Below, in pieces: positions 5,211 through 36,258 of a stretch of DNA of 64,000 nt. Source of the stretch: an uncultured Mollicutes bacterium (GTDB taxonomy: Bacteria; Bacillota_I; Bacilli_A; Acholeplasmatales; Anaeroplasmataceae); NCBI GenBank assembly GCA_945923475.1, contig CAMELE010000009.1, forward strand, positions 1-64,000. Reading direction: 5' to 3'. Both the position numbers and the translations under genes were made by a program. Under the pieces are notes generated by a model, which did no database searches, was not told the DNA's origin, and saw nothing but the letters and a program-made list of their open reading frames with translations. Positions within the stretch are counted from its first letter, which is position 1, and the number at the start of each line of letters is the position of its first letter.

Positions 5211-5256
5211 TTATAAAAGTACCATAATTTTGGCTATTGTATAGTGAGGTGATTTT

Positions 5257-6261: not shown

Positions 6262-6263
6262 TT

Positions 6264-18414: not shown

Positions 18415-20862
18415 TTATTTAATTTTAATAGATAATAGTCTTATTTCTAGAGCTTCAACTGTTGTTTGAATTTGAATTTGATTATTTATGATTGCTCCGT
18501 GAGATAATAATATTTTTGGAGATGATTGATTTGCTAAAGCTTTTGTAACTGCTAAGGATGGGTTACTCCTAACTCCGATTTCCTCAGCAGTATCAAAAAT
18601 TGAACCACTGTATCTGTTTACATAAGTCTGCTCCAACTCATAGGTTTTACCTTGAATATTATTTAAACAAATATTAAAAACAATATTCTTGTTTCCAGCA
18701 AATGGTATGTATCTATTATGATATGATAATTCAAAATATTCGCTACAAGCGTATAAATTTGAAAAATGTTCATAATTATATAATAATATTACTATTTTAT
18801 TTGAATTTTCCTTAGTAATAATAATGCCTTTATCCTGTAATATTATTTCATTACCTAAACTAGAAAGGAATTTATATGCATAATAGCTTGGCTTTTTTAA
18901 ACCATTATAGGTAAAAAATCCTAAGCCACCATGTAACATATCATCAGGCATTTGAGTTTCGTCAATCATGTCAGTTAAATACCAATGACCAAATGAATCA
19001 AGCTTATCAATGTTCTCAACTATGTTTTTTATGATATATGTTGAACTAAAAACAGTATCAGATAACAAATTACGATGAGAGGTAGTAAAGTTAAATTCGG
19101 TTAAATAAATAGTTTTTCCATGATAAAAATCGGATGATCTAACAAAGGTAACAAAGCTATTAAATATGTCAGGATCAGTAGAGAACTGTTCCTTTTTTAT
19201 TTGTTTAAAAAAGTTACTTAAGTTGTTAGAACTATAATGAACAATTAAAAAGTCTGGATAGCAATTATTATCCCGTGCATATTTTAAGAATTTTTTGTCA
19301 AAGCTGATTGTTTCGTTACAAACAGGAATTAAAGAAGGAGAGCCTATCCTAAGATTTTGATTTTTTCTTTTTATTGCTTTAAATATTCCTTCGTAAAGCT
19401 TAAAAAAACGATTATCATCTGGTAAACCATATGCAAATTTAGAGGTATCTGGTACATTCCAAAATGTAAATAGCCAACTTTCAATTTGATCACCATATCG
19501 ATCATGTATATGCTCAATAAAGCTTTCTACTAAAAATAAATAATCATCATCATTTATTGGTAAGGAAATTATCATTCCATTTTCATATCTATTATTTGGA
19601 TTTTCAGCCATTGCAGAGGGCATATAGCTTATTTGAATTAAAGGCTTAATGTTTAAACTAAGAATATAATCTAGTACCATATCAACGTATAAGAATGATA
19701 TATTATAGTGGTTGTTTTTCTTAATTACAACATGCATAGTATCATCAAAAATTCCGTTAAATTTGACATACTTAAACGGGATGTCTTGTAATAATTCCTC
19801 AATCATTTTTTTTATTGGATCTGATAGGAAATCAACGGCTCTAGCAACTGTAAAAAAGTTTAGGTATGTTTTTTTTAATGGGGTGGAAGAGTTAAAATCT
19901 GCTATAAAGCTCTGAATAACAGAGTTTTTATGTTTTTTATATGGTAAATCATATTTTTGATTATTATTTTTAAGTAACTTATCTAAATATTTATTTGTTT
20001 CAAATTGCATAGAAATAATTGGATTTACATTCGTATTATCAGAATTTGCTTTTCTACGATATTCAGTCGGAGACATATTATGAATTTTTTTGAATGCTCT
20101 AACATAACCTCTTTGATCTGAAAAACCATAGCGTAAAGCTATATCATTTAGGGTTGTGTTTTCTTCAACTAAGGTGGCTATTGATTTTGAAACTCGCAAT
20201 TCATCATAATAATCTTGAAAATTTTTGCCTAAATTTTTTTCAAAAAACGTAGAAATATAAGGAACAGTCATTTGATATTTATTAGATAGATCCTTTAATG
20301 TAATACTTTTTTCATAATTATCATTTAAGAATTTAATAATCTCTCTTAGCTTTAAAAGCTGTTTTTTTACTGTAACCTTTTTTGAGTTAGAAATTATACG
20401 ATATTTATTCATTAGTTCCGCAAATAATGAATAGATGATTGATAAATTTCCATAGCGACTATTGTCCTGGTATTTTAAATTATAATTAATAAGAGAAGAA
20501 ATTAAAACTTTTATTTTTTGATATGGACTTTTATCCTTTTCTAAAGAAGAATTACAGTCAAATAATAGACCCTCTCTTTCATCTGCACTCAAACCCAAGC
20601 CTTCTAGGTTTATTTGTGCACTCAATACAACTGCCTCCCTCGAATGAAGTTCATAAATGTCAAAGGGGTTGCATAAAAAAACATCATCACTGTTAAGTAT
20701 AAATAGACGATCATTAACAGTTATTTCTAAATATCCCTCCAAAACGTAAAAAAGCTCAATGTTTTGATTCCAATGAGGCTTTATATCGCCTAACTTGTAA
20801 ATATACATTTTCAGTGGTAAATTTTGTTCAAATTTAAATGGTTCATATTTTATATAATTCAT
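18415..20862 (-). CDS. AraC-family regulator fused to a GH39-like domain
   Basis: This 815-residue cytoplasmic protein has three parts. Residues 1-80 form a cupin-type sensing domain (HWNQNIELFYVLEGYLEI). Residues about 170-272 are an AraC double helix-turn-helix (ITLKDLSNKYQMTVPYIS, then LNDIALRYGFSDQRGYVRAF and MSPTEYRR). Residues about 310-815 resemble glycoside hydrolase family 39. In that domain the acid/base motif WNEP reads WNVP (Val470), while the nucleophile-type motif LTEFN keeps Glu589. Hydrolysis is therefore unlikely and a sugar-sensing role is inferred. It is transcribed divergently from the transporter operon and probably controls it. An upstream TTGTAA-N17-TATAAT promoter ends only 6 nt before the ATG, and no ribosome site is present. 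Confidence 0.88.
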   Translation of the reverse strand: MNYIKYEPFKFEQNLPLKMYIYKLGDIKPHWNQNIELFYVLEGYLEITVNDRLFILNSDDVFLCNPFDIYELHSREAVVLSAQINLEGLGLSADEREGLLFDCNSSLEKDKSPYQKIKVLISSLINYNLKYQDNSRYGNLSIIYSLFAELMNKYRIISNSKKVTVKKQLLKLREIIKFLNDNYEKSITLKDLSNKYQMTVPYISTFFEKNLGKNFQDYYDELRVSKSIATLVEENTTLNDIALRYGFSDQRGYVRAFKKIHNMSPTEYRRKANSDNTNVNPIISMQFETNKYLDKLLKNNNQKYDLPYKKHKNSVIQSFIADFNSSTPLKKTYLNFFTVARAVDFLSDPIKKMIEELLQDIPFKYVKFNGIFDDTMHVVIKKNNHYNISFLYVDMVLDYILSLNIKPLIQISYMPSAMAENPNNRYENGMIISLPINDDDYLFLVESFIEHIHDRYGDQIESWLFTFWNVPDTSKFAYGLPDDNRFFKLYEGIFKAIKRKNQNLRIGSPSLIPVCNETISFDKKFLKYARDNNCYPDFLIVHYSSNNLSNFFKQIKKEQFSTDPDIFNSFVTFVRSSDFYHGKTIYLTEFNFTTSHRNLLSDTVFSSTYIIKNIVENIDKLDSFGHWYLTDMIDETQMPDDMLHGGLGFFTYNGLKKPSYYAYKFLSSLGNEIILQDKGIIITKENSNKIVILLYNYEHFSNLYACSEYFELSYHNRYIPFAGNKNIVFNICLNNIQGKTYELEQTYVNRYSGSIFDTAEEIGVRSNPSLAVTKALANQSSPKILLSHGAIINNQIQIQTTVEALEIRLLSIKIK

Positions 20863-21060: not shown

Positions 21061-21101
21061 AAGGAGGAGTATGAACTGAATGTTCATACAAACAAATTAT
21101 G
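21061..21101 (+). promoter_or_regulatory. Ribosome binding site with intervening hairpin
   Basis: The only strong Shine-Dalgarno sequence, AAGGAGG at 21061-21067, lies 31 nt before the ATPase start at 21099, too far for normal use. Between them GTATGAAC (21069-21076) and GTTCATAC (21082-21089) form a perfect 8-bp stem with a 5-nt loop. Folding this out leaves about 10 nt between the site and the ATG, the optimal spacing. The 5' arm also holds a minimal reading frame, ATG AAC TGA, at 21071-21079. Confidence 0.65.
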
Positions 21102-23165
21102 AAAGAGCCTATTTTTAAAGCATCACATATTGTAAAGCAATTCGGTCCAACAATTGCTTTAAACGATGTTGATATTGAGATTTATCCTGGTGAAATTCGT
21201 GGCTTTATCGGCGAAAATGGATCTGGTAAATCTACAATGTCTGCTATTATGACAGGAATTTATCAAAAAACATCTGGAACAATGGAATATCATGGAAAGC
21301 CTTGGGAACCATCATCCATGATTGAAGCACTTAATGGTGGTATCGGTATTATTGTTCAAGAATCTGGTACGATTAGTCAAATTAGCGTTGCTGAAAATAT
21401 TTATTTAGGTGAACTAAATCAATTTTCAGGGATCCATTATTTTGAGGAAAGAAGGCTTGAAAATTTTTCACCTTTATTTAAACTTAATATTTCGGATATG
21501 GATTCTATTACTAAAGCTTATATTGATAAGATTGTTATTAATAATAAGCTTAAAGCCAAAAAAATGAAAAAAGAAGCTATTTTAAAGATTAAAGAATTGT
21601 ACTTTGCTCACAAGGATGAGCTTGAAAAAAGTAATTTAGATAATCGTAATGAATTAATTAATCATTTTGATTCAATGGCAAATGATTCATTTAAGAAATT
21701 TAAGGAAAATGAAGAAGCAATTGATGCTAAATATGAAAAGAATGAAGAAAAACTTGATGAGGTTATTGCTAAAAGGAGAAGAACTCATGAACATAATGAG
21801 AATAAAGCTTCCTATAGAAGAGAAGTTAAAAAAGAGTATGATGTAATCTACATGAAGCTTAATTGGCTAAAAAATGACTGTCAGTCATTAAAAAATCATT
21901 ATATAAATTTAGTTAATGATATAAAAGGATTGGGTTGTAATAAGCATATTAAAACTTTTAAGGAATTCTGGTTAAAGACAATATTTGGTCTTTTTGTAAA
22001 TGGTAAAAAGCTTCGTAAGCATGCAGGATATGCTCTTGCAAAGATTGGAGTAAATGATATTAATCCTGGCGTTATTACGGCTGCATATGATATGCAAGCA
22101 AGAAAACTTATTGAAATTGCTAAATGCTTAAATAAAAATCCAGAGATTTTTATTGTTGATGAAACAACAACTGCATTATCTGAAACAGGAAGAAATCTTC
22201 TTTATAAAAAGATGAATGAGCTAAAGGAACAAGGCAAATCAGTTTTGTTTATTTCTCACGATTTAGATGAACTAATGGACAAATGTGATACTCTTACAGT
22301 TTTAAGAGATGGTAATATTGTTGCGAATCTTGATAAGGAAAAAGGTGAATTCGATGCTGACGCAATCAAGAAATATATGATTGGACGTGAGTTAAAGGGT
22401 GATTATTATCGTTCTGATTATGATGGAAACCATAGTTCTGAGGTTGTGTTAAAAATGGTGGACGGAATTGAAGGAAATCAATTACGTCATGTTAATCTAG
22501 AATTACATAAGGGTGAAATTCTTGGAATAGGTGGATTATCTGAATGTGGAATGCATACGTTAGGTAAAGCGTTATTTGGTAATATTAAAATCGAAGGTGG
22601 ATACGTCTATACTGGAGAAAACTTAGATAAATTGGTTAGAAGTGAATCATTCGCGATGAAGCAAAAAATTGGCTACTTATCAAAAAATCGTGATGTTGAA
22701 GCTCTAGCTCTTAAAACATCAATATTTGATAATATAGCAATTGCATCTATAAATAATATTGCTAAATTAAATTTCTTTGTAACAAAATCTGCAGAAAAGA
22801 AGCTTGTAAATGAGCAGGTTAGAAAATTACAAATCAAGTGTAATTCACCTGAACAGCTTGTTAATGCACTATCTGGAGGAAATAAACAAAAGGTTTCCTT
22901 TGCTAAGTGGATAGCTAATGATTCAGAGATATTAATTCTTGATTGTCCAACTCGTGGAGTTGATATCGGTGTAAAGCAATTTATTTATCAATTGTTATAT
23001 AAGATGAAGCAAGAGGGTAAATCAATAATAATGATTTCAGAAGAACTTCCAGAGCTTATTGGTATGTCTGATCGTATTTTAATTATGAAAGATGGACAAA
23101 TCAAGAAGGAGTTTAATAGAAGTAAAACTTTAACACAAGAAGAAATCGTTGAATATATGATTTAG
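21099..23165 (+). CDS. CUT2 sugar ABC transporter ATPase with helical insertion
   Basis: This 688-residue protein has the RbsA/MglA layout of two fused nucleotide-binding domains, but the family is usually about 500 residues. Domain 1 has Walker A GENGSGKST (38-46), the Q-loop Gln87, Walker B IFIVDETTTAL (350-360) and SHDLDE. Domain 2 has a degenerate Walker A (GGLSECGMHTLG), signature LSGGNKQKVSFAKW (591-604) and Walker B ILILDCPTRGVD, where the usual Glu is Cys. Residues about 112-300 form an extra, strongly charged helical region between the Q-loop and the signature of domain 1. It is the first gene of the operon, followed by two permeases and a binding lipoprotein. Confidence 0.92.
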   Translation: MKEPIFKASHIVKQFGPTIALNDVDIEIYPGEIRGFIGENGSGKSTMSAIMTGIYQKTSGTMEYHGKPWEPSSMIEALNGGIGIIVQESGTISQISVAENIYLGELNQFSGIHYFEERRLENFSPLFKLNISDMDSITKAYIDKIVINNKLKAKKMKKEAILKIKELYFAHKDELEKSNLDNRNELINHFDSMANDSFKKFKENEEAIDAKYEKNEEKLDEVIAKRRRTHEHNENKASYRREVKKEYDVIYMKLNWLKNDCQSLKNHYINLVNDIKGLGCNKHIKTFKEFWLKTIFGLFVNGKKLRKHAGYALAKIGVNDINPGVITAAYDMQARKLIEIAKCLNKNPEIFIVDETTTALSETGRNLLYKKMNELKEQGKSVLFISHDLDELMDKCDTLTVLRDGNIVANLDKEKGEFDADAIKKYMIGRELKGDYYRSDYDGNHSSEVVLKMVDGIEGNQLRHVNLELHKGEILGIGGLSECGMHTLGKALFGNIKIEGGYVYTGENLDKLVRSESFAMKQKIGYLSKNRDVEALALKTSIFDNIAIASINNIAKLNFFVTKSAEKKLVNEQVRKLQIKCNSPEQLVNALSGGNKQKVSFAKWIANDSEILILDCPTRGVDIGVKQFIYQLLYKMKQEGKSIIMISEELPELIGMSDRILIMKDGQIKKEFNRSKTLTQEEIVEYMI

Positions 23166-23179
23166 AAAGGAGAATTTAG

Positions 23180-24682
23180 ATGGAGAACATTAATTATAAT
23201 GAGCCAGCTTTACAGTGCGAGTACTTTGATTCACAAATAGTTAATAAGGTTTTAGAATTTTATAAACTAAAGCCTGAGCAAAAGTCAAAGGAAGAGCAAA
23301 CTGCCCTTAAAAATGAAATTAAATGCTTATATTTAGAAGAGGATGCTAAACTAAAATATGAAATTATAAATAGTTTAGCTGACCTAAAGGAAGAACATCT
23401 TTTAACTATTTCTAAGATTAATCAAGAACTTCAAAGTAATTTAAATATGATTGAAGGAAAATATGACAAAGATGATAAAAAACAGCTTCAAGAATATAAG
23501 AATATTAAGGTTGGTCATGAAACAGTTGCGAAAAGGGCAAGAATAAAAGAAAACAATAGCTATGCTGATTTAATAAAAGGTGAAAAATATAAAAGGGTTA
23601 CTCTTCATCTTGAGTATACAAAACTTGTGTACTTAATAACAGGAAAGGTTTCTCCAATAGAAAGCTTACGTAGTAAAAGCTTTGAAATGAGGGCGAATCT
23701 AAATATTAAACGCACATTAAAGAATAAACACACTTGGTTTAATCTAGTTCCTTGGCTTATGCTAATAATAATTATAGCCTCCTATGCAATAGGAAAATCT
23801 ATTACAGGCTATAGTGGTAATTTAGGTGATGTAATTAGTAATGGAATATTCGTTGCAGTTGTAGCTACAGGTGCAGTATATATTTATTCCCAAGGTGGAT
23901 TTGATATGTCACTTGGTAATGCATCCTTGATGTGTGCGACAGTTGCAGCTTTGATGTTCAACTCAACTCACAATTTAGCAGTTTCATTAATTGTGGCAAT
24001 TATTGTTGGTGCTGGACTTGGTATTGTAAATGCCATTTTAGCTACAATGCTTAATTTGCCAGTAATGGTTATGACACTTACAATGATGAATATACTTGCT
24101 GCTATTCATGAGGCTATCTTAGGTAGTCGTGGTGGATTAATTTCTGTTGATACAGGAATGATTTCTAATGTATGGATTTATGCTTTATTCTTATTAATAT
24201 TCTTTATACTATGCTGGTTTATTTTTAACTATACAAAGGTAGGAAGAAGAAACAAATTTATTGGTTCAAATAAGGTTGCAGCTAGATTTAATGGTATTAA
24301 TCTTATGAGAGCAGGTATTATTTCCTTTGCCATTTCCGGTGTAGGATTAGGTATTTGTGGATTCTTATTTGCTTGTTCAAAGTCAGGTAGTATGTATGGT
24401 GCGTCCACTGTTTTGGGACAAGTTGGATTAAACGTTGTTATTGCGATTGTTTTTGGTGGTATGACAACAAGTGGTGGACCAAAGTCAAAGGTAAGTTGCG
24501 CAATAATCGGAGCTTTCTTCTCTGTATTCTTAGACGAATTCTTTGCAGCTATTTCAACTCCAACATTCCAGGTTGGTAATTATTCATATATGGTTAAGGG
24601 AATAGTATTTATCATTGTTTCTCTTGCTAATATGTGGGACACAAGAAGTAAAATGTTAGCTTCAGGAGGTAGTATACAATAA
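23180..24682 (+). CDS. CUT2 ABC transporter permease 1 with N-terminal helical extension
   Basis: Residues about 188-500 are an RbsC-type permease with about 8-10 TM segments and the family segments GGFDMSLGNASLM and VFGGMTTSGGP. Residues 1-185 are an extra hydrophilic, helix-forming domain rich in Lys and Glu with no membrane segment. Normal RbsC proteins begin within about 20 residues of the first TM. The extension shares the pattern IKxLY followed 44 residues later by KY(D/E)K with the insertion in the ATPase, so the two may be related. AAAGGAG precedes the ATG, and the stop overlaps the start of permease 2. Confidence 0.9.
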   Translation: MENINYNEPALQCEYFDSQIVNKVLEFYKLKPEQKSKEEQTALKNEIKCLYLEEDAKLKYEIINSLADLKEEHLLTISKINQELQSNLNMIEGKYDKDDKKQLQEYKNIKVGHETVAKRARIKENNSYADLIKGEKYKRVTLHLEYTKLVYLITGKVSPIESLRSKSFEMRANLNIKRTLKNKHTWFNLVPWLMLIIIIASYAIGKSITGYSGNLGDVISNGIFVAVVATGAVYIYSQGGFDMSLGNASLMCATVAALMFNSTHNLAVSLIVAIIVGAGLGIVNAILATMLNLPVMVMTLTMMNILAAIHEAILGSRGGLISVDTGMISNVWIYALFLLIFFILCWFIFNYTKVGRRNKFIGSNKVAARFNGINLMRAGIISFAISGVGLGICGFLFACSKSGSMYGASTVLGQVGLNVVIAIVFGGMTTSGGPKSKVSCAIIGAFFSVFLDEFFAAISTPTFQVGNYSYMVKGIVFIIVSLANMWDTRSKMLASGGSIQ

Positions 24683-25803
24683 TGAAATATCAAGAACCGA
24701 TTAAATTTAACAGTAAATCTATTATTCATAATAGAAGTGTTCAACGTAAAACTAAAAAATGGTTTTGGTCATTGTTATGTCCTATAATTATGCTTGTGAT
24801 TGCAATTATTATGTCAAGAGCGAGTGGAACATCATTATTCTTTATTGGTAATGCTTCAGATAACTTTTCAAATATTATGATTATGGCTAGAACGGCAGTT
24901 ATGACTTTGATTGCAGCTTTAGCATTAAATACTAATCTTAACTCTGGTAGAATGGATTTCTCATTAGGTGCTACAGGTATTCTAGCTTGCTTATTTGCAT
25001 CACTAATTGTACCTGGGGTAGATACTATTGCTCATATTTTTGAATTTTTATTATTAAGTATAATATTTGGTATGATTTTAGGATTTATTCATTCAATAGT
25101 TTTAATATTAACAAAGCTTCCTCCAATCGTTATATCACTTGGAATGTGCTTAGTTTATGAGGGAATAGCTAAGGTTGTGGCTGTTTCAAACGGATCATCT
25201 GGTACAGTTAATTTACAAATGGGCTCACATACAACCTCTTTCTTTCAAGAACCTATTATTCTAATTCCTCTAGCTATACTTGTTTGTGTTATCATGGCTG
25301 CAGCTTTATGTTACACAAAATTTGGCTATAATAAATTAGCTCTTGTATATGATCAAAAAATATCTGTAGATACAGGTATTAATGAGATTTCTCATTGTAT
25401 TGCTTCATTCATTATTGCTGGTGCTTTAATAGCTATATATCAGGTTATGTCATCTTGTGGTACGTCAAGTATTTCAATTGAGGTTAACCTAGCTTCATCT
25501 GGAGCGGTATTTAGAAATTTCTTACCAATTTTTATTGGTGGTATTTTAGCAAGATATAGTAATCAAATTGTCGGATTATTACTTGCTGTAGTTGGTACAA
25601 CGTTATTGTATTCTTATGGATTTGATAATGCATTGTCATCTACTGTATCTAGCTTAATTAACGGCTTTAGTGTATTTGCAGTATTAGTTTATATGGTTGA
25701 TAAGAATCGCTTCCTTAACTGGTGTAAAATGAAAAAATATGTTTGGAAGGAAAAACGTTTAAATAAAAGAATTAGTGGAGGTGATGTAAATGAAGAAGCA
25801 TAG
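24682..25803 (+). CDS. CUT2 ABC transporter permease 2
   Basis: This is a 373-residue permease with about ten TM segments. It contains an RbsC/LsrD-like core: LNSGRMDFSLGATGILAC, LPPIVISLGMCLVYEGIAK and PIFIGGILARYSNQIVGL. The N-terminal 30 residues are basic and short, so it lacks the large extension of permease 1. It overlaps permease 1 by one base (TAATG) and the binding-protein gene by 14 bases. Two different permeases imply a heterodimeric pore, as in Lsr and nucleoside-type systems. Confidence 0.92.
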   Translation: MKYQEPIKFNSKSIIHNRSVQRKTKKWFWSLLCPIIMLVIAIIMSRASGTSLFFIGNASDNFSNIMIMARTAVMTLIAALALNTNLNSGRMDFSLGATGILACLFASLIVPGVDTIAHIFEFLLLSIIFGMILGFIHSIVLILTKLPPIVISLGMCLVYEGIAKVVAVSNGSSGTVNLQMGSHTTSFFQEPIILIPLAILVCVIMAAALCYTKFGYNKLALVYDQKISVDTGINEISHCIASFIIAGALIAIYQVMSSCGTSSISIEVNLASSGAVFRNFLPIFIGGILARYSNQIVGLLLAVVGTTLLYSYGFDNALSSTVSSLINGFSVFAVLVYMVDKNRFLNWCKMKKYVWKEKRLNKRISGGDVNEEA

Positions 25804-27166
25804 AATATTTAGAAAACTTGCAACCTACCTAGCTCTTGGTGTAACAGCAGCATCATTAGCATCTTGCGAATCCTTGTTTGTGTTCGGTAAGGATGAAATT
25901 AATGCTAATGATATTGAAACCTTTGATGGAACAAACAATGCAATTTTTTTTGCACTATATAATTATTACGGCTACGAAGGACAACACTTTACTAATAAGT
26001 GGTTAGGTATGAACGATGCATTAAAGGATCATGGCATAACTGTTACAGGCTACGAGGGTGAAAAAGATGCAAGAAAATTTAAAATTAAAAGAGAAGAAAA
26101 CTGTGATTTACCAGATGATGCTGTTATATATATGGTTAATAATCAAAACTGGGATGCTGGTATTCAATATAATAAGCCTTTTGCCCAATATCATCCAATG
26201 GCAGTAATTTCAACCTGTAATGGTGTTGAATTTGCCTCATCACCAATCCTATCAACAGGAGATTCGATATCAAATGCTACAATGGGTGGTTTTTCTAAAA
26301 CATATCGTGACGCGTTTGTTAATGGATCATTAAGATATTTAGTTGCTAAATATTCAGCACATATTTTACCTATTTTTGCTGCTTCAGTCGATGCTGTTAA
26401 AAAAGGAGAGGCTATGAGAAATGCTGATGGAACAGCTCTTCATTTAGGGATTACAAACTGGTCAATTCAAACTCTTGATGAGTACGATGAGATGGCTGCA
26501 GTTGATTCAATTAGTTCTGAGCATCCTACTCTTAGAAAAATAAATGTAGATCAGTTCTTTGATCCTAGTAGTGAATCATATGGTGCAGAAAAGCTTGCAC
26601 AATGGGTTAAGGATTCATCAAAAGAAAATGTAAAGGAACTTTATAAACTAAATGGTGAAAATGAAGCCCAGGATAAAGCAACTTATCGAACTGGTAAAGA
26701 GATTAAATGTGGAATTATTGCACCATCTAGTGTTAATGATCAGGTTCAAAAATATATTGATTTTATTAAAGGCTATCTAGCAACAGCATATAATGTGACA
26801 GTTCTTCCAGTTGGAGCTGTTACAAGTAGTAATACACAAAGTCAGGTTGCGAAAACATTATGTAATCAAGGAGCTGATTTTATAATATCTTTACAAGATG
26901 ATACGGATCGTAATAATGCAGCAAGAGTATGTAATGACAATAAGGTTTTCTTTGCAATTGGCGGTTCATGTCAAAATGAAATTGATTATGAAGAAATAAA
27001 AAATTTAAAATATTATGTTGGCTCTATCGGAACCTCAACAAGCGAGGAAAGAAGAGCTGCTAAAGAAATGACAGAGTACTATTTACAATGTATGATTCAT
27101 AGAGCAAATGGCGATTTAGAGGCATTCCAAATTGAATATAAGGGTTTGAGAAAAGAGGATAACTAG
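25790..27166 (+). CDS. Sugar-binding lipoprotein of the ABC transporter
   Basis: This 458-residue protein has a lipoprotein signal (LGVTAASLASC, Cys26) and is predicted to be anchored outside the membrane. The mature part looks like a two-lobed periplasmic binding protein of the sugar/nucleoside (Peripla_BP_4 or BMP-like) type: GIIAPSSVNDQVQKYIDFIKG, then LCNQGADFIISLQDD and FAIGGSCQNEID. It is larger than typical RbsB (about 300 residues), with a central insertion around residues 150-300. Placement after two permeases fixes its role. GGAGGTGA precedes the ATG. The ligand cannot be deduced from sequence alone. Confidence 0.88.
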   Translation: MKKHRIFRKLATYLALGVTAASLASCESLFVFGKDEINANDIETFDGTNNAIFFALYNYYGYEGQHFTNKWLGMNDALKDHGITVTGYEGEKDARKFKIKREENCDLPDDAVIYMVNNQNWDAGIQYNKPFAQYHPMAVISTCNGVEFASSPILSTGDSISNATMGGFSKTYRDAFVNGSLRYLVAKYSAHILPIFAASVDAVKKGEAMRNADGTALHLGITNWSIQTLDEYDEMAAVDSISSEHPTLRKINVDQFFDPSSESYGAEKLAQWVKDSSKENVKELYKLNGENEAQDKATYRTGKEIKCGIIAPSSVNDQVQKYIDFIKGYLATAYNVTVLPVGAVTSSNTQSQVAKTLCNQGADFIISLQDDTDRNNAARVCNDNKVFFAIGGSCQNEIDYEEIKNLKYYVGSIGTSTSEERRAAKEMTEYYLQCMIHRANGDLEAFQIEYKGLRKEDN

Positions 27167-27167
27167 T

Positions 27168-27899
27168 ATGGCAAAACTAACAATTGAAATCTATGCTAAA
27201 GCATTAGCAAGAAGAACAACATTCGATTTAGTTATTCCATCATTAAATCTTCATGGATGCTTAAATAATGAGAATGAACATTATTATGAAAATCTTGAGA
27301 AAACATATCCATTAGTTATATTTCTACATGGTTTTGGGGATAATGCAAATGCGTGGCAAAATAATACTCAAGTAATAAAACTATGTGAAGAAAACAAAAT
27401 TGCAGCGTGCTTTATTAATGGAGATAATAAATGGTATCTTAATATGGGGCCAATAGATGACTATTATTCTTTAATAGAAAGAGATATATTAGACTATTTA
27501 TATGGTAATTTCCGTTGCTTATCAAGAAATATGCCTTTAGGAATTGCTGGAGTCTCAATGGGTGGTTATGGTGCTTTGTATCATTATTTGAACAATACAA
27601 ATAAATATCAAGCATGTATTGCATTATCTCCTGCGACAAAGCCTGATTCATTAGATGAGTCAAAATATGGTAGTCTTAAGGATTTATTCTTAGTAAGAAA
27701 AAATGATAAATTAAACATTTATTTATCAGTTGGTACAAAAGATTTTATTTATAATGCATCAAAGGAATTTGATACATTCTTATCAGAAAATAAGATAAAT
27801 GTTAGCTATAAGATTATTGAAGGTGCTGATCATTCGTGGAATACATGGAATAATCAAACATTAGAAGTTATAAATTATTTAAAAAAAATAGGTTTTTAG
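27168..27899 (+). CDS. Alpha/beta-hydrolase esterase (EstA / feruloyl esterase-like)
   Basis: This is a 243-residue cytoplasmic esterase of the esterase-D/tributyrin esterase group. The oxyanion and nucleophile segments are FLHGFGDNANAWQNN and GVSMGGYGALYH (GxSxG), with the catalytic His in GADHSWNTWN near the C-terminus. No signal peptide is present, so it acts on imported substrate. In this operon it probably removes acyl groups (acetyl, feruloyl or similar) from the glycoside brought in by the transporter; that substrate is an inference. It starts 1 nt after the binding-protein stop. Confidence 0.87.
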   Translation: MAKLTIEIYAKALARRTTFDLVIPSLNLHGCLNNENEHYYENLEKTYPLVIFLHGFGDNANAWQNNTQVIKLCEENKIAACFINGDNKWYLNMGPIDDYYSLIERDILDYLYGNFRCLSRNMPLGIAGVSMGGYGALYHYLNNTNKYQACIALSPATKPDSLDESKYGSLKDLFLVRKNDKLNIYLSVGTKDFIYNASKEFDTFLSENKINVSYKIIEGADHSWNTWNNQTLEVINYLKKIGF

Positions 27900-27917
27900 A
27901 AAAGAAAGGATGATAAA

Positions 27918-29687
27918 ATGAAAAAAATTAAATTATTATTTGGATGTACTTTAAGTGTTTTAAGTTTAGCTGCTTTAATTGGATGTAAAGGTGGTTCAGA
28001 TACTACAACTAATAATCAAACTACTGTTCAAACCTCTCAAACACCAGCATTTGATGTTAATTCGGTTATCGCTAATTATAAAAGCAGTGTAGAGGGAACT
28101 GTAAAATTAACATATAAGACTGATTATATTGTGGATGTTAATGCTAATGGTGGTAATGCTAATATGGAGGCGTTTAAGCATCATATTGTATCTAATAATA
28201 CAGTTGAAATGGATCTTGGAAGTGATTTATACATTTATGTAAAGAAGGATAAGCAAGATCTTAAGGTAAGTGAAGATGTAACTACTACAGAAGCTTTACT
28301 ATATAAGGATGGCATAAAATACTATTATTTAACATCTACAACAAGTAAAGTCGAGGTTTCAGCTGATAAGGCTAAAGAAAAGGTTGGTGAAATTTTTTCG
28401 GAAATGACAGAGGAGCAAGCTGGAATAATTACACTTGATAGCTTGATTTATAATAGTACCTCTAAGGACTATGAATTAAAAAATTTTGGTTTAACTGAAA
28501 CATTTGTTGCCTCTGATTTAAATGATCCTGTTTATTCTACAGGTAGTGTAGCTGGTGGCCTAAGCGTTTTATATAAACCTGAATATGTTGGATATCATAC
28601 AGATGGTGGTTGGTCAGATTTTTCTAATAAAACTGATAATTATGCAGCATTATGTGAGGTAGAAACAAATAATCTTGGCTATGTTACAAAATGGAAGGAA
28701 ACATATAATAAGGCAAGTCTTGACTTTGCAATTATGAATCCAGCTCCTACTGTTAGTATAACTGGTACAAGAGAATTTATTTCTTCATATGGTGATACAT
28801 TAACAAAGAAAAATGCCTTAGCTGAAGTAAAGGCTACAGCTAAATATGAAGCTGTTGCAAATGGTACTTATCAGGTTAAAACATGTGCTATGGGTGATTT
28901 TGCTAATATGACAGATGTAGAAAATGGCGCTTCAATTGAAGTTGGTAAGATTCTTTGTATTAAACCAACTGCAAATGAAGGATATAAAGTAAAGAGTGTT
29001 GCCATAAATGATGTAGCTACACCATTAGTGAATCCTTCTCAAGCAGGTGGATGGTATTGCTATACTATTATTGCAGGAGAAAATAATATTGCAGTTGAAT
29101 TTGAAGCTCAAGAAGGTGTTGTATTCTCACAATCAGCAAATGGAACATATACTGTATCATCTTTTGAATTAAACGGACAAACTCCTACTAATTTTGTTCA
29201 ATTAACATCAGGAGATAAGGTTGATGCTGGAAAATGGTTAGGTGTAAAGTGTACTCCTGAAGAAGGCTATGTCGTTGATAGTGTTAAAGTTAATGGTACT
29301 GATGCTACATTAATGGGTGGATATTATTGCTCAAAGGTAGTAGAAGGCACAGTAGTATTTGAAGTTGTTGTAACATTTAAAGCATCACAGCCTGTTGATC
29401 CAACAGCTACAATTAATGTAACAAATTCATCTAATGTTGAATATCAACTTCAATCATTTGTCTATGGACAAAATGGACCTTCTAATTATCAAGTAATTAC
29501 TGATGGTAAAATTACATCTGGTCAAACTATTTGGGGAGCAATCGTAGTTTCAAGTAGTACTAGTGTTACAGTAACAGTTAATGGTACAGTTACTAATGTA
29601 AATATTCCTAATGGTCAAAATATATTCTATTGCTTCGCAGTTTCTACAGGTGGAGCATATGAGGTTGTAATAACTATAAATCAATAA
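27918..29687 (+). CDS. Lipoprotein with three tandem C-terminal repeats
   Basis: This 589-residue secreted lipoprotein has a signal peptide ending in AALIGC (Cys at about 23) and a Thr/Gln-rich spacer. The N-terminal domain (about 45-285) is unrecognised. The C-terminus holds three repeats of about 80-90 residues. Each begins with a strand like NGTYQV or NGTYTV (the third is NVEYQL), contains a GD/GQ turn, and ends with a conserved aromatic-Tyr-Cys triplet (GWYCYT, GYYCSK, IFYCFA). The first two also share EGYxVxSVxxN. They resemble divergent InlB-B or Big-type surface repeats. It may capture the substrate for the transporter. It is followed by a terminator, so later genes may also need their own promoter. 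Confidence 0.8.
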   Translation: MKKIKLLFGCTLSVLSLAALIGCKGGSDTTTNNQTTVQTSQTPAFDVNSVIANYKSSVEGTVKLTYKTDYIVDVNANGGNANMEAFKHHIVSNNTVEMDLGSDLYIYVKKDKQDLKVSEDVTTTEALLYKDGIKYYYLTSTTSKVEVSADKAKEKVGEIFSEMTEEQAGIITLDSLIYNSTSKDYELKNFGLTETFVASDLNDPVYSTGSVAGGLSVLYKPEYVGYHTDGGWSDFSNKTDNYAALCEVETNNLGYVTKWKETYNKASLDFAIMNPAPTVSITGTREFISSYGDTLTKKNALAEVKATAKYEAVANGTYQVKTCAMGDFANMTDVENGASIEVGKILCIKPTANEGYKVKSVAINDVATPLVNPSQAGGWYCYTIIAGENNIAVEFEAQEGVVFSQSANGTYTVSSFELNGQTPTNFVQLTSGDKVDAGKWLGVKCTPEEGYVVDSVKVNGTDATLMGGYYCSKVVEGTVVFEVVVTFKASQPVDPTATINVTNSSNVEYQLQSFVYGQNGPSNYQVITDGKITSGQTIWGAIVVSSSTSVTVTVNGTVTNVNIPNGQNIFYCFAVSTGGAYEVVITINQ

Positions 29688-29695
29688 TATATATT

Positions 29696-29725
29696 TAAGC
29701 CCTAAAAAGGGCTTAGATATATTTT
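29696..29725 (+). terminator. Terminator inside the sugar locus
   Basis: TAAGCCC (29696-29702) pairs with GGGCTTA (29709-29715), followed by GATATATTTTT. It could end or attenuate the first half of the operon after the lipoprotein gene and so lower expression of the enzyme genes relative to the transporter. Confidence 0.65.
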
Positions 29726-29797
29726 TAAGAATTAATCTAGTAATTTAAGCTGAAAGGATTGTTAATCAGATAAATAGGTTGATTACAGGTGAAAAAT

Positions 29798-30643
29798 ATG
29801 AATCTAGCGAAAAATGAAGATTTAAAAAATAAAGTTATTGTAATTACAGGTGGTGGAGGTGTAATATGCTCTGCAATAGCTGAAGGATTTTGTATGGCAG
29901 GTGCCAAGGTTGCACTTTTAAACTTAAGTCTAGAGGCAGCATCCACAAAAGCAGAAGAGTTAACTAATAAAGGCTATATTGCTAAGGCATATCAATGCAA
30001 TGTGTTGAAGAAGGATGAGCTTATTAGAGCTCACGATGAAATTGTTAAAGATCTAGGTCCATGTGATGTGCTAATCAATGGAGCTGGTGGAAATAATGCA
30101 AAAGCAAATACTGATAACGAATTCTTTGAAAAAAATGATTTAGGTGAACTTAAAACCTTCTTTGATTTAGATGAAAGTGGAATTGAATTTGTTTTTAATT
30201 TAAATTTTTTAGGAACATTGTTACCATCTCAGGTTTTCGCACGTGATATGATTGGAAGAAGTGGATGCTCAATTATTAATATTTCTTCGATGAATGCATT
30301 TACACCACTGACTAAAATTCCTGCATATAGTGCTGCAAAAGCTGCTGTGTCTAATTTTACTCAATGGCTTGCTGTTCACTTCTCTCATGTTGGTATTAGG
30401 TGTAATGCAATTGCTCCTGGCTTCTTAGTTACATCTCAAAATCACGATTTGCTATTTGATAAGAATGAAAAGCCAACTCAAAGAGCCCAAAAAATCTTAA
30501 AAAATACTCCAGTTGAGCGATTTGGTTCACCTGCTGAAATGGTTGGGCCAACGCTATTTCTTGCCAATCCAAACGCATCTGGCTTTGTAAATGGTGTTGT
30601 TTTACCGATTGATGGTGGCTTTAATGCTTATTCTGGAGTATAG
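29798..30643 (+). CDS. uxuB: SDR-family D-mannonate oxidoreductase
   Basis: This 281-residue short-chain dehydrogenase interconverts fructuronate and mannonate with NAD(P)H. The cofactor loop is ITGGGGVICSAIAEGF, a pattern typical of UxuB-type SDRs. The catalytic Ser is in INISSMNAF and the Tyr-Lys pair in AYSAAKAAV; AIAPGFLVTSQN and the C-terminal PIDGGFNAYSGV also fit. The GTG at 29789 is an alternative start, but AGGTGA lies just before ATG 29798. The next gene encodes mannonate dehydratase, which strongly supports the assignment. Confidence 0.88.
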   Translation: MNLAKNEDLKNKVIVITGGGGVICSAIAEGFCMAGAKVALLNLSLEAASTKAEELTNKGYIAKAYQCNVLKKDELIRAHDEIVKDLGPCDVLINGAGGNNAKANTDNEFFEKNDLGELKTFFDLDESGIEFVFNLNFLGTLLPSQVFARDMIGRSGCSIINISSMNAFTPLTKIPAYSAAKAAVSNFTQWLAVHFSHVGIRCNAIAPGFLVTSQNHDLLFDKNEKPTQRAQKILKNTPVERFGSPAEMVGPTLFLANPNASGFVNGVVLPIDGGFNAYSGV

Positions 30644-30658
30644 TAGGAGGAATACATT

Positions 30659-31717
30659 ATGAAGATGACATTTAGATGGTATGGATATGATGACAAAAAT
30701 ACGCTTAATTATATAAGACAAATTCCTGGAGTTACAGGAGTTGTAACTGCATTATATACAGTACCAGTTGGTAACGTTTGGCCTGAGGATGAGGTAAAAA
30801 AACTAAAGGTATACGTTAATTCATATGGCCTTGAAATGGAGGTTATTGAATCAGTACCTGTATCTGAGGATATCAAGCTTAGAAAGGGTGATTACAAAAA
30901 GCATATTGAAAATTTTAAGGAAAATATTCGAATTTTAGCTCGTAATGGAGTTAAATGCATTTGCTATAATTTTATGCCTGTATTTGATTGGACCCGCTCT
31001 CAGCTTAATCATAAGCTTTCTGATGGTTCAAATGCTTTAGTATATTACAAGGAAGATGTTGCAAAACTAGATCCAACTAAGCTAACTTTACCAGGTTGGG
31101 ATTCATCATATCAGCCAAATGAAGTAAAGAAGCTTATAGCTCAATACCAAGAACTAGGTGAAGATGGCTTATGGAATAATCTTAAGCTCTTTTTAGAGGA
31201 GATTATTCCAGTTGCCAAAGAATGTGATGTATTAATGGCTATTCATCCAGATGATCCTGCGTGGCCTATTTTTGGAATTCCAAGAATTATTACTAATGAG
31301 AAGAATCTTGATCGTTTTTTAAGCCTTGTGGATGATCATTACAATGGTTTAACATTATGCTCTGGTTCTCTTGGAACTAATCCTAATAACAATATGGTTC
31401 GTATCTTTAAAAAATATGCAGAAATGGATCGTATTCATTTTGCTCATATTAGAAATATAAAAATTGTTGGAGATCAATCATTTGAGGAATCAGCGCATTA
31501 CTCAAAATGTGGATCGCTTGATATGGTTGGTATGATTAAGGCATTGCATGATGCAGGATTTAATAAGTATATTCGCCCCGATCATGGAAGAATGATTTGG
31601 GATGAGAATGCTAAACCAGGATATGGATTATATGATAGAGCATTAGGCTCAATGTATATTACTGGCATTTGGGAAACACTTGATAGAATTGATAATAAGA
31701 AAGAAGAGATATTATGA
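30659..31717 (+). CDS. uxuA: D-mannonate dehydratase
   Basis: UxuA (352 aa) is a TIM-barrel, Mn-dependent enzyme that converts D-mannonate to 2-keto-3-deoxygluconate. Family segments are TFRWYGYDD at the start, NFMPVFDWTRS, MAIHPDDPAWPIFGIPRI, TLCSGSLG, FAHIRN and RPDHGRMIWDE near the end. Length is about that of Firmicutes UxuA. TAGGAGGA precedes the ATG. Its TGA stop overlaps the start of the next gene. Glucuronate isomerase and KDG kinase are not in the window. Confidence 0.96.
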   Translation: MKMTFRWYGYDDKNTLNYIRQIPGVTGVVTALYTVPVGNVWPEDEVKKLKVYVNSYGLEMEVIESVPVSEDIKLRKGDYKKHIENFKENIRILARNGVKCICYNFMPVFDWTRSQLNHKLSDGSNALVYYKEDVAKLDPTKLTLPGWDSSYQPNEVKKLIAQYQELGEDGLWNNLKLFLEEIIPVAKECDVLMAIHPDDPAWPIFGIPRIITNEKNLDRFLSLVDDHYNGLTLCSGSLGTNPNNNMVRIFKKYAEMDRIHFAHIRNIKIVGDQSFEESAHYSKCGSLDMVGMIKALHDAGFNKYIRPDHGRMIWDENAKPGYGLYDRALGSMYITGIWETLDRIDNKKEEIL

Positions 31718-33657
31718 AATTATTAGAGCCTTTAAAAATTGGTAATATTACTCTAAAGAATAGAATTATGTTTCCACCTTTGACAACTGGTTATGAGGAA
31801 AAGGATGGTTCTATTGGTAATCATTCATTTAATTTTTATAAAAGATTAGCTGAGGGAGGTGCAGGATATATTGTTATTGGAGATGTTACACCTATAATGA
31901 ACTTTTCCCCTGCCCCTAAACTATTTAATGATTCACAGATTGTTAGCTATAAAAAACTAGCCGATGCAGTTCATGAATATGGCTGCAAATTAGGTGTGCA
32001 AATATTTCACCCAGAATATCATGCTGAAAAGATAATGAGCTTGTTTATTTCTGGCAAGCAAAAAGAAGCCTATGATTTATTACATTATGATATGATTCAT
32101 TTTGTTAGCGAGGTAACAAAAGAAGAATTATTAGATATTTGTGATAAAATTTGTAAATGTGCTCAAAGAGCATATAAAGCAGGAGTAGATGTCTGCGAAA
32201 TTCATGGTGATCGTTTGTGTGGGTCATTATGCTCAACTATTTTAAATCATCGTAACGATGAATTTGGTGGATCTTTTGATAACAGAATTAGATTTGCATT
32301 ATTAGTTGTAGATGGAATCAAGAGTCTATGTCCTGAAATGACAATTGAATATAAGCTACCTATTGTTACAAAGCAAAAGGATGGAACATTACAAGGAAAG
32401 GGTGGCTTAGAAATCGAAGAAGCAATTAAATTTGCAAAAATTCTTGAAAAGCATGGCGTTGATTCAATTCATGTTGCCCAAGCAAATCACACAGGTAATA
32501 TGAATGATACAATTCCTGCAATGGGCACAAGACCATATGGATTTATGATTGAGGAAACAAAGTCTATCAAAAAGGTTGTTAGTATTCCTGTATCATTTGT
32601 TGGTCGTATTACATCAGCTCAAATGGCTGAATCTCTTATTCAAAGTGGTGTATGTGACTATGTTGCATTTGGTAGAAATTTACTTACTGACCCGTATCTT
32701 CCAAAACGTCTAGAATCTGGTGATATGAGTATTATTCGTCGTTGTATGATGTGTAACAAAGGATGTACAGATTCAATAATGTCAAGACGCTTTATTTCTT
32801 GTGTTTTAAATGCAGAAAATGGTTATGAAGATAAAAGAATAATTACTAAGGCTACAAATATCAAAAAAGTTTTAGTAGTTGGTGCTGGTATAGCTGGACT
32901 TGAGGCTACTCGAGTTTTATCGCTTAGAGGTCACAAGGTTACACTTCTTGAAAAGGAGTATAAGCTTGGAGGGCAAATTAACATAGCATGTATACCACCT
33001 CGTAAGGAGGAAATGCGTAGATCAGTTTTATTCTATGAGCAAATTCTGCCTAGACTTGAGAATGTAACTGTAAAGCTTGGCCATTCATTTAAACCAGAGG
33101 ATGCAAAAGGATTTGACGAAGTTATTATTGCTACAGGTGCAAAGAGCCTTCATCCTAATATTCCTGGTATTGATAACATTAACGTTCTTGACTCATGGGA
33201 TATTTTAAAGGGTACAAAAGAGGTGTATGGAAAGGTTGCTGTTTGTGGTGGAGGACTTGTTGGAGCCGAAACAGCTGAATATATTGCATCTAAGGGCTAT
33301 GATGTTACAATAATTGAAATGAAAGAGAAAATAGCTCAAGATGAATCTAGTACAATTTTACCTTCAATGATGTCAGACTTTAAAAAATATGATACAAAGC
33401 TATTACCTTTACATAAGATATTAGAATTTAAGCTAAATGGAGTTTTAACAGAAATTATTGATAAAGATGGAAATAAGGTAAGCGAAGAATTTATTGAAGC
33501 AGATACAATTGTAAATGCTTTATCATCTGTAAAGGTTATTCCTTGTGTAGATGGAATTAATGTACCAATTCATTATATTGGTGATTGTGGTGGACAAAGA
33601 CCATCAAATATTGAAAATGCAGTTAAAAGTGCTTATGATTGCGCAGTAAGCATTTAG
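31714..33657 (+). CDS. NADH:flavin oxidoreductase with 4Fe-4S and FAD domains
   Basis: This 647-residue enzyme has the layout of 2,4-dienoyl-CoA reductase, 2-enoate reductase and BaiCD/BaiH. Residues 1-340 are an FMN barrel (KNRIMFPPLTTGY, EIHGDRLCGSLCSTILNHRND). The cluster ligands are CMMCNKGC plus a later Cys in FISCVLN. The C-terminal half binds FAD (VVGAGIAGLEATRVL) and NAD (VCGGGLVGAETAEYIA). Such enzymes reduce activated double bonds or oxidise related metabolites. In this locus it could act on an aglycone or hydroxycinnamate freed by the esterase and glycosidase (inference). It overlaps uxuA by 4 bases. Confidence 0.9.
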   Translation: MKLLEPLKIGNITLKNRIMFPPLTTGYEEKDGSIGNHSFNFYKRLAEGGAGYIVIGDVTPIMNFSPAPKLFNDSQIVSYKKLADAVHEYGCKLGVQIFHPEYHAEKIMSLFISGKQKEAYDLLHYDMIHFVSEVTKEELLDICDKICKCAQRAYKAGVDVCEIHGDRLCGSLCSTILNHRNDEFGGSFDNRIRFALLVVDGIKSLCPEMTIEYKLPIVTKQKDGTLQGKGGLEIEEAIKFAKILEKHGVDSIHVAQANHTGNMNDTIPAMGTRPYGFMIEETKSIKKVVSIPVSFVGRITSAQMAESLIQSGVCDYVAFGRNLLTDPYLPKRLESGDMSIIRRCMMCNKGCTDSIMSRRFISCVLNAENGYEDKRIITKATNIKKVLVVGAGIAGLEATRVLSLRGHKVTLLEKEYKLGGQINIACIPPRKEEMRRSVLFYEQILPRLENVTVKLGHSFKPEDAKGFDEVIIATGAKSLHPNIPGIDNINVLDSWDILKGTKEVYGKVAVCGGGLVGAETAEYIASKGYDVTIIEMKEKIAQDESSTILPSMMSDFKKYDTKLLPLHKILEFKLNGVLTEIIDKDGNKVSEEFIEADTIVNALSSVKVIPCVDGINVPIHYIGDCGGQRPSNIENAVKSAYDCAVSI

Positions 33658-33673
33658 TAAATAGGAGGGGTAT

Positions 33674-35428
33674 ATGGTTGATTTAACAAAACGTCCATTT
33701 TACTTATCTATGAAACAAATAAACTGGGTTGAAAAAACTTTGAATCAAATGAGTGAAGTGGAAAAACTTGAGCAATTGTTTATTGATCTTGTTAATACAA
33801 ATGATAAAACTACAATTGATAATTTATGTAAAACGCGTCGCTTTGGTGGTGTAAGATATGGAAATCGACCTGCTAAGATGATCCTTGAGCAAAATAACTT
33901 TCTCCAGGCAGCATCTAAAATCCCTCTTTTAATTGCTTGCAATGCTGAAAGTGGTGGTTCTGGTGCTGCTGCGGGTGGAACAGAAGTTGGTAATGGTATT
34001 AAAATAGGAGCTACAGGAGATTATAATTACGCATATCAATTAGGTTATATTTCGGGAATGGAAGGTAAAGCAATTGGCTGTAATATGACATTTGCACCTG
34101 TGGTGGATATAAATATGAACTTTCATAATCCAATTATTTCTTTAAGGAGCTTTGGTAGTAGTAAAGAATTAGTTAAACGATGCGGAATTGAATATTTGAA
34201 GGGTGCTCATAAAGCAGGTATTGCTTGCGCAGCTAAGCATTTTCCTGGGGATGGTGTTGATGAAAGAGATCAGCATTTATCGTATAGTGTTAACAGCTTA
34301 TCCATTGATGAGTGGGATAATACATTCGGTGATGTTTATAAAGGATTGATAGAGGAAGATTTAGATGCGATAATGATAGGCCATATAATGCTGCCAAGCT
34401 ATCAAAAATACTTTAATCCTAATATGAGTGATTCAGATTGGCTACCAGCAACCTTATCAAAGGAAATTGTTACAAATTTATTGAGAGATAAGCTAGGCTT
34501 TAATGGATTAGTACTGACTGATGCTTCACATATGGTTGGATTAACTGGTATAATGAAAAGAGAGGATATTATTCCTACGGCAATTAATGCTGGCTGTGAT
34601 ATGATTTTATTTTATAATGATTTTGAAGAGGATTTATCTTATGCAAAAAAAGCATTAGAAAATAATGTGATATCGTTAGAGCGTTTAAATGATGCGGTTA
34701 GACGTATTTTAGGTCTTAAAGCTCATCTAGCATTAAATGAATCTAATAATCAACTTACTGATGCTTCATTATCTGGTTTTGCGAAAGAAGAATATTTAAA
34801 TGTTGCTAAGGAAATATCAGCAAAAGCAATAACACTGGTCAAAAACAACCAACAAGGTTTACTACCAATAACTACACAAAAATATCATCGAATTCTATTG
34901 GTTTCTCAGGAATCAACAAATTTATTATCTAAATTTTCAAATTCACTTAGTAAGGAAAAAAACTATGCTGAAGTATTTAAGGAACTACTTGAGGCTGAAG
35001 GCTTTGAGGTAGAAATATTTGAATCACTTGAGCGAAAACTAGAAGGTGCGAGTAAAGAGGAATTATTTAAAATTATGAATAATCTATATTCTCAAAAGAC
35101 ATCAATAGCTTCTGTTAAGGAAAAATATGATTTGATAATTCATTTAGCGAATGTTGGTGGAAATGGAACTGTTCAAAGATTAAATTGGGCATTTACTAAA
35201 GGATCATTAGATGTTCCTTGGTATTCCCATGAACTACCAGTTATATTTATCTCTCTAGCATGTCCGTTTCATTTATTTGATGTCCCCGAGGTTCAAACAT
35301 ATATCAATGCATATGACAAGCAACCTCATACTTTAGCCTCAATAGTTAGAAAGCTTACAGGTAAGGAAAGCTTTTTAGGTAAATCTCCAGTTGATGCCTT
35401 CTGTGGAAGAAATGAGTTGAAATTATGA
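33674..35428 (+). CDS. Glycoside hydrolase family 3 enzyme
   Basis: This is a 584-residue GH3 enzyme of the short NagZ-like type with a second domain. Segments are PLLIACNAESGG, FAPVVDINMNFHNPII, AKHFPGDGVDERDQH (substrate loop), and GLVLTDASHMVG, whose Asp is the nucleophile. Residues about 385-584 form the alpha/beta C-terminal domain with ITLVKNNQQGLLPI. No signal peptide is present, so it cleaves glycosides inside the cell after import. Specificity (beta-N-acetylhexosaminidase, beta-xylosidase or beta-glucosidase) cannot be fixed by sight. GGAGGGG precedes the ATG. Confidence 0.9.
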   Translation: MVDLTKRPFYLSMKQINWVEKTLNQMSEVEKLEQLFIDLVNTNDKTTIDNLCKTRRFGGVRYGNRPAKMILEQNNFLQAASKIPLLIACNAESGGSGAAAGGTEVGNGIKIGATGDYNYAYQLGYISGMEGKAIGCNMTFAPVVDINMNFHNPIISLRSFGSSKELVKRCGIEYLKGAHKAGIACAAKHFPGDGVDERDQHLSYSVNSLSIDEWDNTFGDVYKGLIEEDLDAIMIGHIMLPSYQKYFNPNMSDSDWLPATLSKEIVTNLLRDKLGFNGLVLTDASHMVGLTGIMKREDIIPTAINAGCDMILFYNDFEEDLSYAKKALENNVISLERLNDAVRRILGLKAHLALNESNNQLTDASLSGFAKEEYLNVAKEISAKAITLVKNNQQGLLPITTQKYHRILLVSQESTNLLSKFSNSLSKEKNYAEVFKELLEAEGFEVEIFESLERKLEGASKEELFKIMNNLYSQKTSIASVKEKYDLIIHLANVGGNGTVQRLNWAFTKGSLDVPWYSHELPVIFISLACPFHLFDVPEVQTYINAYDKQPHTLASIVRKLTGKESFLGKSPVDAFCGRNELKL

Positions 35429-36258
35429 AAAAAATTAGTGAATTTATTCCCCAATATAGCTTTTTAGTTTGTGTTGATAGTGATGGATGTGCCATCGATT
35501 CAATGAGAATTAAGCATGAAAAATGCTTCGGAAGAGCATTAATTGAAATTTGGAATTTAGAAAATAAAAAAGAAATCTGTCACAAAATTTGGAATGATGT
35601 TAATCTTTATTCAAAATCAAGAGGCATCAATCGATTTCTAGCTCTTGAAAAAGTCCTTAAAAGAATTAACGATGAGATTATTTATATCGAAGGATTAAAT
35701 GATTTAACTCAGTATATTAAGGATAATAAAGTCTACTCAAATGCTTCCTTAACAGAATATATTAAAGAACATGAATCAAATATGTTGAAAAAGTGCCTTG
35801 ATTGGTCTAATCTGACAAATAAGTATATTAAAGGTCTTAACCCTCTTGATGTGGTTGAATTCCCGTATGTTAAGGGACAATTGAATAAAATTGCCTTAAA
35901 GGCTGATGTAGCTGTTGTATCTAGTGCTAATTATGAGGCTATTACGGAAGAATGGAATCGCTTAGGACTAAGTAATTTTGTTGCAGTATGCTGTACACAA
36001 AATGATGGTTCAAAGGAAGAATGTCTTGAAAAACTTGCAAAAAACTACAAAACATCTAATGTGATAATGATCGGTGATAGTCCAGGAGATTTAGAAGCCG
36101 CAAGAAAGAATGGAATATATTTTTATCCGATTCTTGTTAACAAGGAAGATGATTCATGGAAAAGAATTAATTCATATTTAGATTTATTTTTTAGTAATCA
36201 ATTAGATTATTGTCAACAAAGATTAATTGATCAATTTGAGAGTAATTTGATAATATAA
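35425..36258 (+). CDS. HAD-superfamily hydrolase
   Basis: This 277-residue protein has the HAD core: nucleophile motif VCVDSDGCAIDSM (Asp18, Asp20), motif II VVSSANYEAI, a Lys in the middle region, and VIMIGDSPGDLEAARKNG as the metal-binding end motif. The cap is helical and inserted after motif I. It starts within the stop of the GH3 gene (ATGA overlap) and ends the sugar locus. It probably dephosphorylates a small phosphorylated sugar or acts as a repair phosphatase. The substrate is unknown. Confidence 0.85.
   Translation: MKKISEFIPQYSFLVCVDSDGCAIDSMRIKHEKCFGRALIEIWNLENKKEICHKIWNDVNLYSKSRGINRFLALEKVLKRINDEIIYIEGLNDLTQYIKDNKVYSNASLTEYIKEHESNMLKKCLDWSNLTNKYIKGLNPLDVVEFPYVKGQLNKIALKADVAVVSSANYEAITEEWNRLGLSNFVAVCCTQNDGSKEECLEKLAKNYKTSNVIMIGDSPGDLEAARKNGIYFYPILVNKEDDSWKRINSYLDLFFSNQLDYCQQRLIDQFESNLII

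Follow-up and report, generated by a model that had tools for sequence, protein, structure and literature searches.

A CUT2 sugar importer with predicted helical arms on its ATPase and one permease, in a locus with esterase, glucuronate and bilirubin reductase genes

In an uncultured Mollicutes bacterium of the Anaeroplasmataceae, a CUT2 sugar importer carries an extra block of about 185 charged residues in each of two proteins, its RbsA-type ATPase and the first of its two permeases. The importer is encoded within positions 1 to 64,000 of contig CAMELE010000009.1 (assembly GCA_945923475.1), the 64,000-nucleotide stretch of DNA that was analysed here and is called the window. The two blocks, or arms, are real, are under selection, are predicted to fold as helical hairpins with the same order of elements, have one origin as a pair, and always occur with an esterase that is predicted to be cytosolic. 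The wider reading that we prefer is offered tentatively, as one only slightly short of probable: the first nucleotide-binding domain (NBD1) of the ATPase and one of the two permeases may each have gained a cytoplasmic hairpin, the two hairpins forming a stalk, in a locus for the use of a glucuronate ester that is possibly conjugated bilirubin. The transporter genes and the two arms are the following.

21099..23165, + strand: CUT2 (RbsA-type) ATPase, 688 residues, two fused nucleotide-binding domains (two PF00005 stretches)
21423..22004, + strand: ATPase arm, residues ~109-302, an insert within the helical subdomain of NBD1 (alignments; AlphaFold2)
23180..24682, + strand: permease 1, BPD_transp_2 family, 500 residues (PF02653 at residues 217-480)
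23180..23731, + strand: permease arm, N-terminal extension, residues 1-184 (alignments; AlphaFold2)
24682..25803, + strand: permease 2, armless, 373 residues (PF02653; orthologues of 361-374 residues in armed operons)
25790..27166, + strand: putative substrate-binding lipoprotein, strongly diverged (no Pfam match in the window)
27168..27899, + strand: esterase, CE1/EstA-like, without signal peptide (PF00756; PDB relatives are EstA and feruloyl esterases)

The fused double NBD of the ATPase and the PF02653 match found in both permeases place the system among the CUT2 importers of RbsA type. The top NCBIfam match of the ATPase is RbsA at 371 bits, which does not reach the equivalog cut-off of 745. 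The binding protein has no Pfam match in the window or in the armed L041 and L044, and a weak Peripla_BP_4 match, below cut-off, in the armed L034 and the armless L039.

A preliminary description of this DNA had located the ATPase and permease 1 genes correctly, and alignment with relatives bears out its claim that each product contains about 185 extra residues. The ATPase block falls within NBD1, after the Q-loop region and before the signature; 239 residues separate SVAEN from xEIAK here, compared with 54-62 in relatives. In permease 1, it precedes the first transmembrane segment (TM1). Both blocks are charged (34-37% K/R/E/D) and predicted to be helical, as had been proposed, and neither arm gave a meaningful match in Pfam and PDB sequence searches. 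Between two congeners, dN/dS was 0.16 and 0.18 in the arms and 0.03-0.05 in the remainder of each protein. The arm values imply that both arms are kept by purifying selection, while diverging about five times faster than the protein cores in the same comparison.

AlphaFold2, run on single chains with family alignments, predicts that both arms are long antiparallel helical hairpins. The modelled ATPase arm consists of helices at residues 132-147 and 150-214, a six-residue tip (turn 215-220), and helices at 221-276 and 282-296, with a confidence score (pLDDT) of about 82-97. The modelled permease arm has helices at 18-29 and 37-91, a tip at 92-99, a helix at 100-154, and a linker helix at 159-209 that leads into TM1; its pLDDT is 91-97 at residues 11-160 and lower around 170-190. 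The order of elements is identical in the two predicted arms: a short helix, a long helix of 65 or 55 residues, the tip, a second long helix of 56 or 55 residues, and a linker helix. Predicted helices of 55-65 residues would reach a length of 80-95 Å. In fold searches the permease matched BtuC-type permeases, the chains that aligned across its arm (XPR1/SPX and others) falling below significance. EttA was among the best fold matches, but the solved structures found did not include a CUT2 ATPase.

The distribution of the arms was examined by a permease-family scan over 84,980 species genomes, which yielded 80 loci. The permease arm occurs in eight genomes, namely that of the window, its congener L036, L041-L044, G037 (L034) and G036 (L035). 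The ATPase arm is present in all eight, including L036, where the ATPase is cut at its start yet includes the arm. In contrast, neither arm was found at any of 71 other loci, whose permeases are at most 367 and ATPases at most 539 residues long, some frames being incomplete. The earlier statement that normal relatives lack the extra blocks is thereby supported, and the proposed search for genomic co-occurrence found the two strictly together. A search of the order with the ATPase-arm profile revealed no other confident carrier, and extending the search to 55 genomes of the family, 160 of the order and 395 of the class added no armed genome and two more armless relatives, both in the order. Because the armed permeases form one clade (support 95/94), the arm pair represents a single gain that has been retained, rather than eight separate ones. 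An identity of 30% at its base marks the clade as old, and both arms are kept in members whose DNA ranges from 28% to 51% GC. The strict co-occurrence (8/8 vs 0/71) indicates that the ATPase arm and the permease arm are plausibly coupled.

Two genes of the neighbourhood follow the arms closely. A PF00756 esterase gene lies directly after that of the binding protein in 7/7 armed loci with sequence there, as opposed to 0/59 armless loci with at least 5 kb of downstream sequence; no signal peptide was seen on reading the sequence, and the enzyme is predicted to be cytosolic. BilR genes that score above the NCBIfam cut-off are found in 8/8 armed genomes and in 2/26 armless ones (hypergeometric 2.5e-6, uncorrected for phylogeny). 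Armed and armless relatives, on the other hand, have GH39-type regulators and GH3 genes in common, and therefore it is the esterase and BilR linkage that came with the arms. In the window, all genes from 21099 to 36258 are on one strand with intergenic gaps of at most 101 nt. The genes that follow the esterase, and the regulator on the far side of the ATPase, are listed here.

18415..20862, - strand: regulator of AraC type with a fused GH39 domain, oriented divergently from the transporter (PF12833, PF01229)
27918..29687, + strand: further lipoprotein, retained in the branch of the window and L041-L044
29789..30643, + strand: SDR, D-mannonate oxidoreductase of the fructuronate reductase type (NF006132, 422 bits; cut-off 281)
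30659..31717, + strand: mannonate dehydratase UxuA (TIGR00695, 388 bits; cut-off 200)
31714..33657, + strand: bilirubin reductase BilR, long form (NF045599, 992 bits; cut-off 750; HGDR at 164-167)
33674..35428, + strand: GH3 glycoside hydrolase (GH3 homologues are also neighbours of many armless relatives)
35425..36258, + strand: HAD-like hydrolase, family assigned by reading (an orthologue adjoins BilR in two armed genomes)

The BilR gene overlaps uxuA by 4 nt. Judged by its score and by its HGDR active-site motif, its product is a bilirubin reductase and not a generic enoate reductase; in its long form, the position of HGDR and a score above the NCBIfam cut-off it resembles the BilR of Hall et al. 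2024 (PMC10769871). The HGDR motif has been shown to be important for bilirubin reduction. Hall et al. describe bilQRS operons (PMC10769871), and a text search found no mention of a transporter in their paper or in the BilV preprint (PMC13252198). Among other armed genomes, one contig of L044 carries, in order, permease 1, permease 2, the binding protein, the esterase, a lipoprotein, the SDR, the HAD-like protein, BilR, the glucuronate isomerase UxaC, Eda and a KdgK-like kinase. In L041 the opposite strand encodes BilR, together with a second OYE-type reductase, just upstream of the transporter, and in G502 the GH3, SDR, HAD and BilR genes are grouped at a contig end. A second OYE-family reductase that lacks HGDR was observed near BilR in three armed genomes and adjacent to it in two (L245:121-2106, L247:4885-6828 and L253:14007-15950); it could be a BilV-like vinyl reductase (PMC13252198).

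In the reading that we prefer, the arms would lie side by side and form a cytoplasmic stalk. This stalk would lock NBD1 to the armed permease and so set the order of the heteromeric complex. A cytosolic partner could also dock on it; the best candidate is the operon esterase, which would be held at the exit of the transporter. We have moderate confidence that stalk packing keys NBD1 to the armed permease, and less that the stalk holds the esterase. Gene content suggests that the cargo is a glucuronate ester: the esterase would cleave the imported ester inside the cell, the glucuronate would be consumed by way of UxaC, the SDR, UxuA, KdgK and Eda, and the released aglycone would be reduced by BilR. 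Bilirubin glucuronides are acyl-glucuronide esters, that is, their glucuronic acid is ester-linked. Because of this linkage, and because BilR is always present, conjugated bilirubin fits as the cargo and is the leading candidate to which the gene content points. A stronger version, that of a self-contained system in which the armed importer takes up bilirubin glucuronides, an arm-docked esterase splits the acyl-glucuronide, the glucuronate is eaten, BilR reduces the bilirubin and the arms hold the insoluble pigment on an enzyme platform, seems to us unlikely. In the usual description, conjugated bilirubin is first deconjugated by beta-glucuronidase and BilR acts afterwards (PMC10769871).

Several observations weigh against the preferred reading. 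Since the armed set is one clade, the co-occurrence of the arms counts as one retained event. Within the same lineage, OppD carries NBD arms that are not accompanied by a permease arm. G036 and G037 have the arms and the esterase, but their BilR is encoded elsewhere in the genome and no uxuA or SDR neighbours were seen. The GH3 and GH39 genes would also fit plant-glycan substrates. A putative terminator-like hairpin (AAGCCC/GGGCTT at 29696-29715, with T-rich DNA after it) lies between the lipoprotein and SDR genes, and is possibly an internal terminator or attenuator.

The Opp proteins also underlie an alternative account of the arms themselves. In the source genome, OppD (L165:3563-5146) and OppF (5136-6755; G000:C38) contain charged helical inserts at the corresponding NBD position, amounting to about 175 extra residues in OppD and fewer in OppF. 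Across the order, OppD open frames range from about 345 residues without an insert to more than 700, and the Q-loop-to-signature spacing is 195-432 in the OppD loci read compared with 59 in insert-free OppF; OppB and OppC are free of an N-terminal arm. An NBD arm thus requires no permease partner in general, and NBD arms are not unusual in the lineage; it is the pairing with a permease arm that is special to the CUT2 system. These inserts, together with the armless OppB and OppC, favour the view that the CUT2 arms are coiled-coil hairpins of unrelated origin that came to resemble each other by convergence, in a lineage prone to arms on its ABC ATPases, with any coupling incidental or mediated by separate partners. 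This account is a serious contender that we would still place below probable: the CUT2 arms were never found apart, and their presence does not track that of OppD arms across genomes. The arms are transporter-specific: the L044 genome has an armed CUT2 system and, as its best OppD match, a 384-residue frame without insert, and L047 is the reverse.

As cargo, the chief alternative to bilirubin conjugates is a glucurono-xylan oligosaccharide esterified by feruloyl or acetyl groups. The esterase resembles feruloyl and EstA esterases, AraC-GH39 and GH3 genes are neighbours here as they are near armless relatives, and UxuA and the SDR would consume glucuronate side chains. However, the curated cut-off and HGDR identify the OYE-family enzyme as BilR and not as a generic enoate reductase; BilR is present in every armed genome as opposed to few armless ones; and armless relatives have the xylan-like genes too, while it is the esterase and BilR linkage that track the arms. 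A xylan cargo is quite possible on this evidence, though we incline against it.

The preliminary description had suggested that the arms are copies of one accessory domain, citing short motifs that lie exactly where it reported them (IKELY 164, KYEK 211 and AKRRR 224 in the ATPase; IKCLY 47, KYDK 94 and AKRAR 117 in the permease). As proof of homology the shared motifs were rejected, since orthologues conserve neither IKxLY nor KY(D/E)K; the sole feature retained in both blocks is a KR pair. Duplication was tested at the sequence level by Smith-Waterman alignment against shuffled and reversed sequences. Block against block gave a score of 88, compared with 44.9 +/- 7.8 and a maximum of 80 for 2000 shuffles, and the similarity therefore goes beyond plain composition, which the earlier description had cautioned might drive it; the best ungapped diagonal, however, does not stand out (p 0.17). 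The suggested profile-profile comparison gave a collinear match of ~134 columns between the arms, with E 6.6e-4 in one direction and 1.8e-4 in the other (probability 27-48%). This match beats 450 block shuffles (best E 2.8e-3), and its score of 30-33 compares with at most 21 for the coiled coils of RecN and RNase Y. The best sequence-only profile alignment sets permease residues 33-168 against ATPase residues of about 150-292, with helix 1, tip, helix 2 and linker helix paired. Such a match, and the identical predicted topology, argue for a true duplication, in which an ancestor copied the hairpin domain from one of the two proteins to the other, in either direction, and the copies now pair homotypically. 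Set against this, E weakens to 0.002-0.19 on most row subsets, and the independently placed OppD arms of the same order reach E 9e-4 against the permease arm, so that the excess of the arm-arm match over this control is slight. A profile-to-sequence search of 1984 open reading frames likewise did not connect the families, its sole match being the window's own permease at E 0.18, which vanishes once the window and L036 rows are removed. Duplication is thus not established and, in our estimation, doubtful; by these comparisons convergent coiled-coil hairpins appear at least as likely. The earlier interpretation as a whole is partly supported, with respect to matching and co-occurring helical elements and not to duplication.

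A role of the arms as scaffolds for some general structure in the cytosol of the host cell, unrelated to cargo, would agree with the arm-like inserts of several importers of the lineage. It is improbable, both arms having been retained across very different GC and the presence of OppD arms not tracking that of CUT2 arms between genomes.

The system shares with RbsABC, XylFGH, AraFGH and MglABC a single ATPase with fused NBDs, BPD_transp_2 permeases, a lipoprotein as putative binding protein and the gene order. It differs from these CUT2 importers in having hairpins of ~185 residues within NBD1 and, in one permease, ahead of TM1, and in its diverged binding protein, two unlike permeases, and linked esterase, BilR and glucuronate genes. 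ABC-F proteins such as EttA likewise have a helical arm within NBD1, which in MtbEttA comprises residues 94-136 (PMC8782954). The arm described here is several times longer and part of an importer, whereas ABC-F proteins act on the ribosome without a permease; permease genes adjoin the ATPase gene in every readable armed operon. The OppD and OppF of the same order have their long inserts at the corresponding site between Q-loop and signature, but are not paired with a permease arm, and their sequences show no robust relationship to the CUT2 arms. In the literature searched, no description was found of arms in CUT2 systems or of a bilR-transporter-glucuronate locus. Arms on both motor and channel would be a new way of tying an ATPase to a permease or of placing an enzyme at a transporter exit, and the armed importer would be a simple system in which to test such coupling. 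The gene context offers a testable candidate route for the uptake and use of conjugated bilirubin by gut bacteria, and we regard this neighbourhood as a more important discovery than the arm pair itself.

The AraC-GH39 architecture of the divergent regulator is also found beside many relatives of the transporter. The source genome has a second CUT2 system, armless, at G000:C7:36000-47000 (L166), accompanied by an AraC-GH39-like regulator and by GH3 and HAD genes; it is likely an ordinary relative of the armed one.

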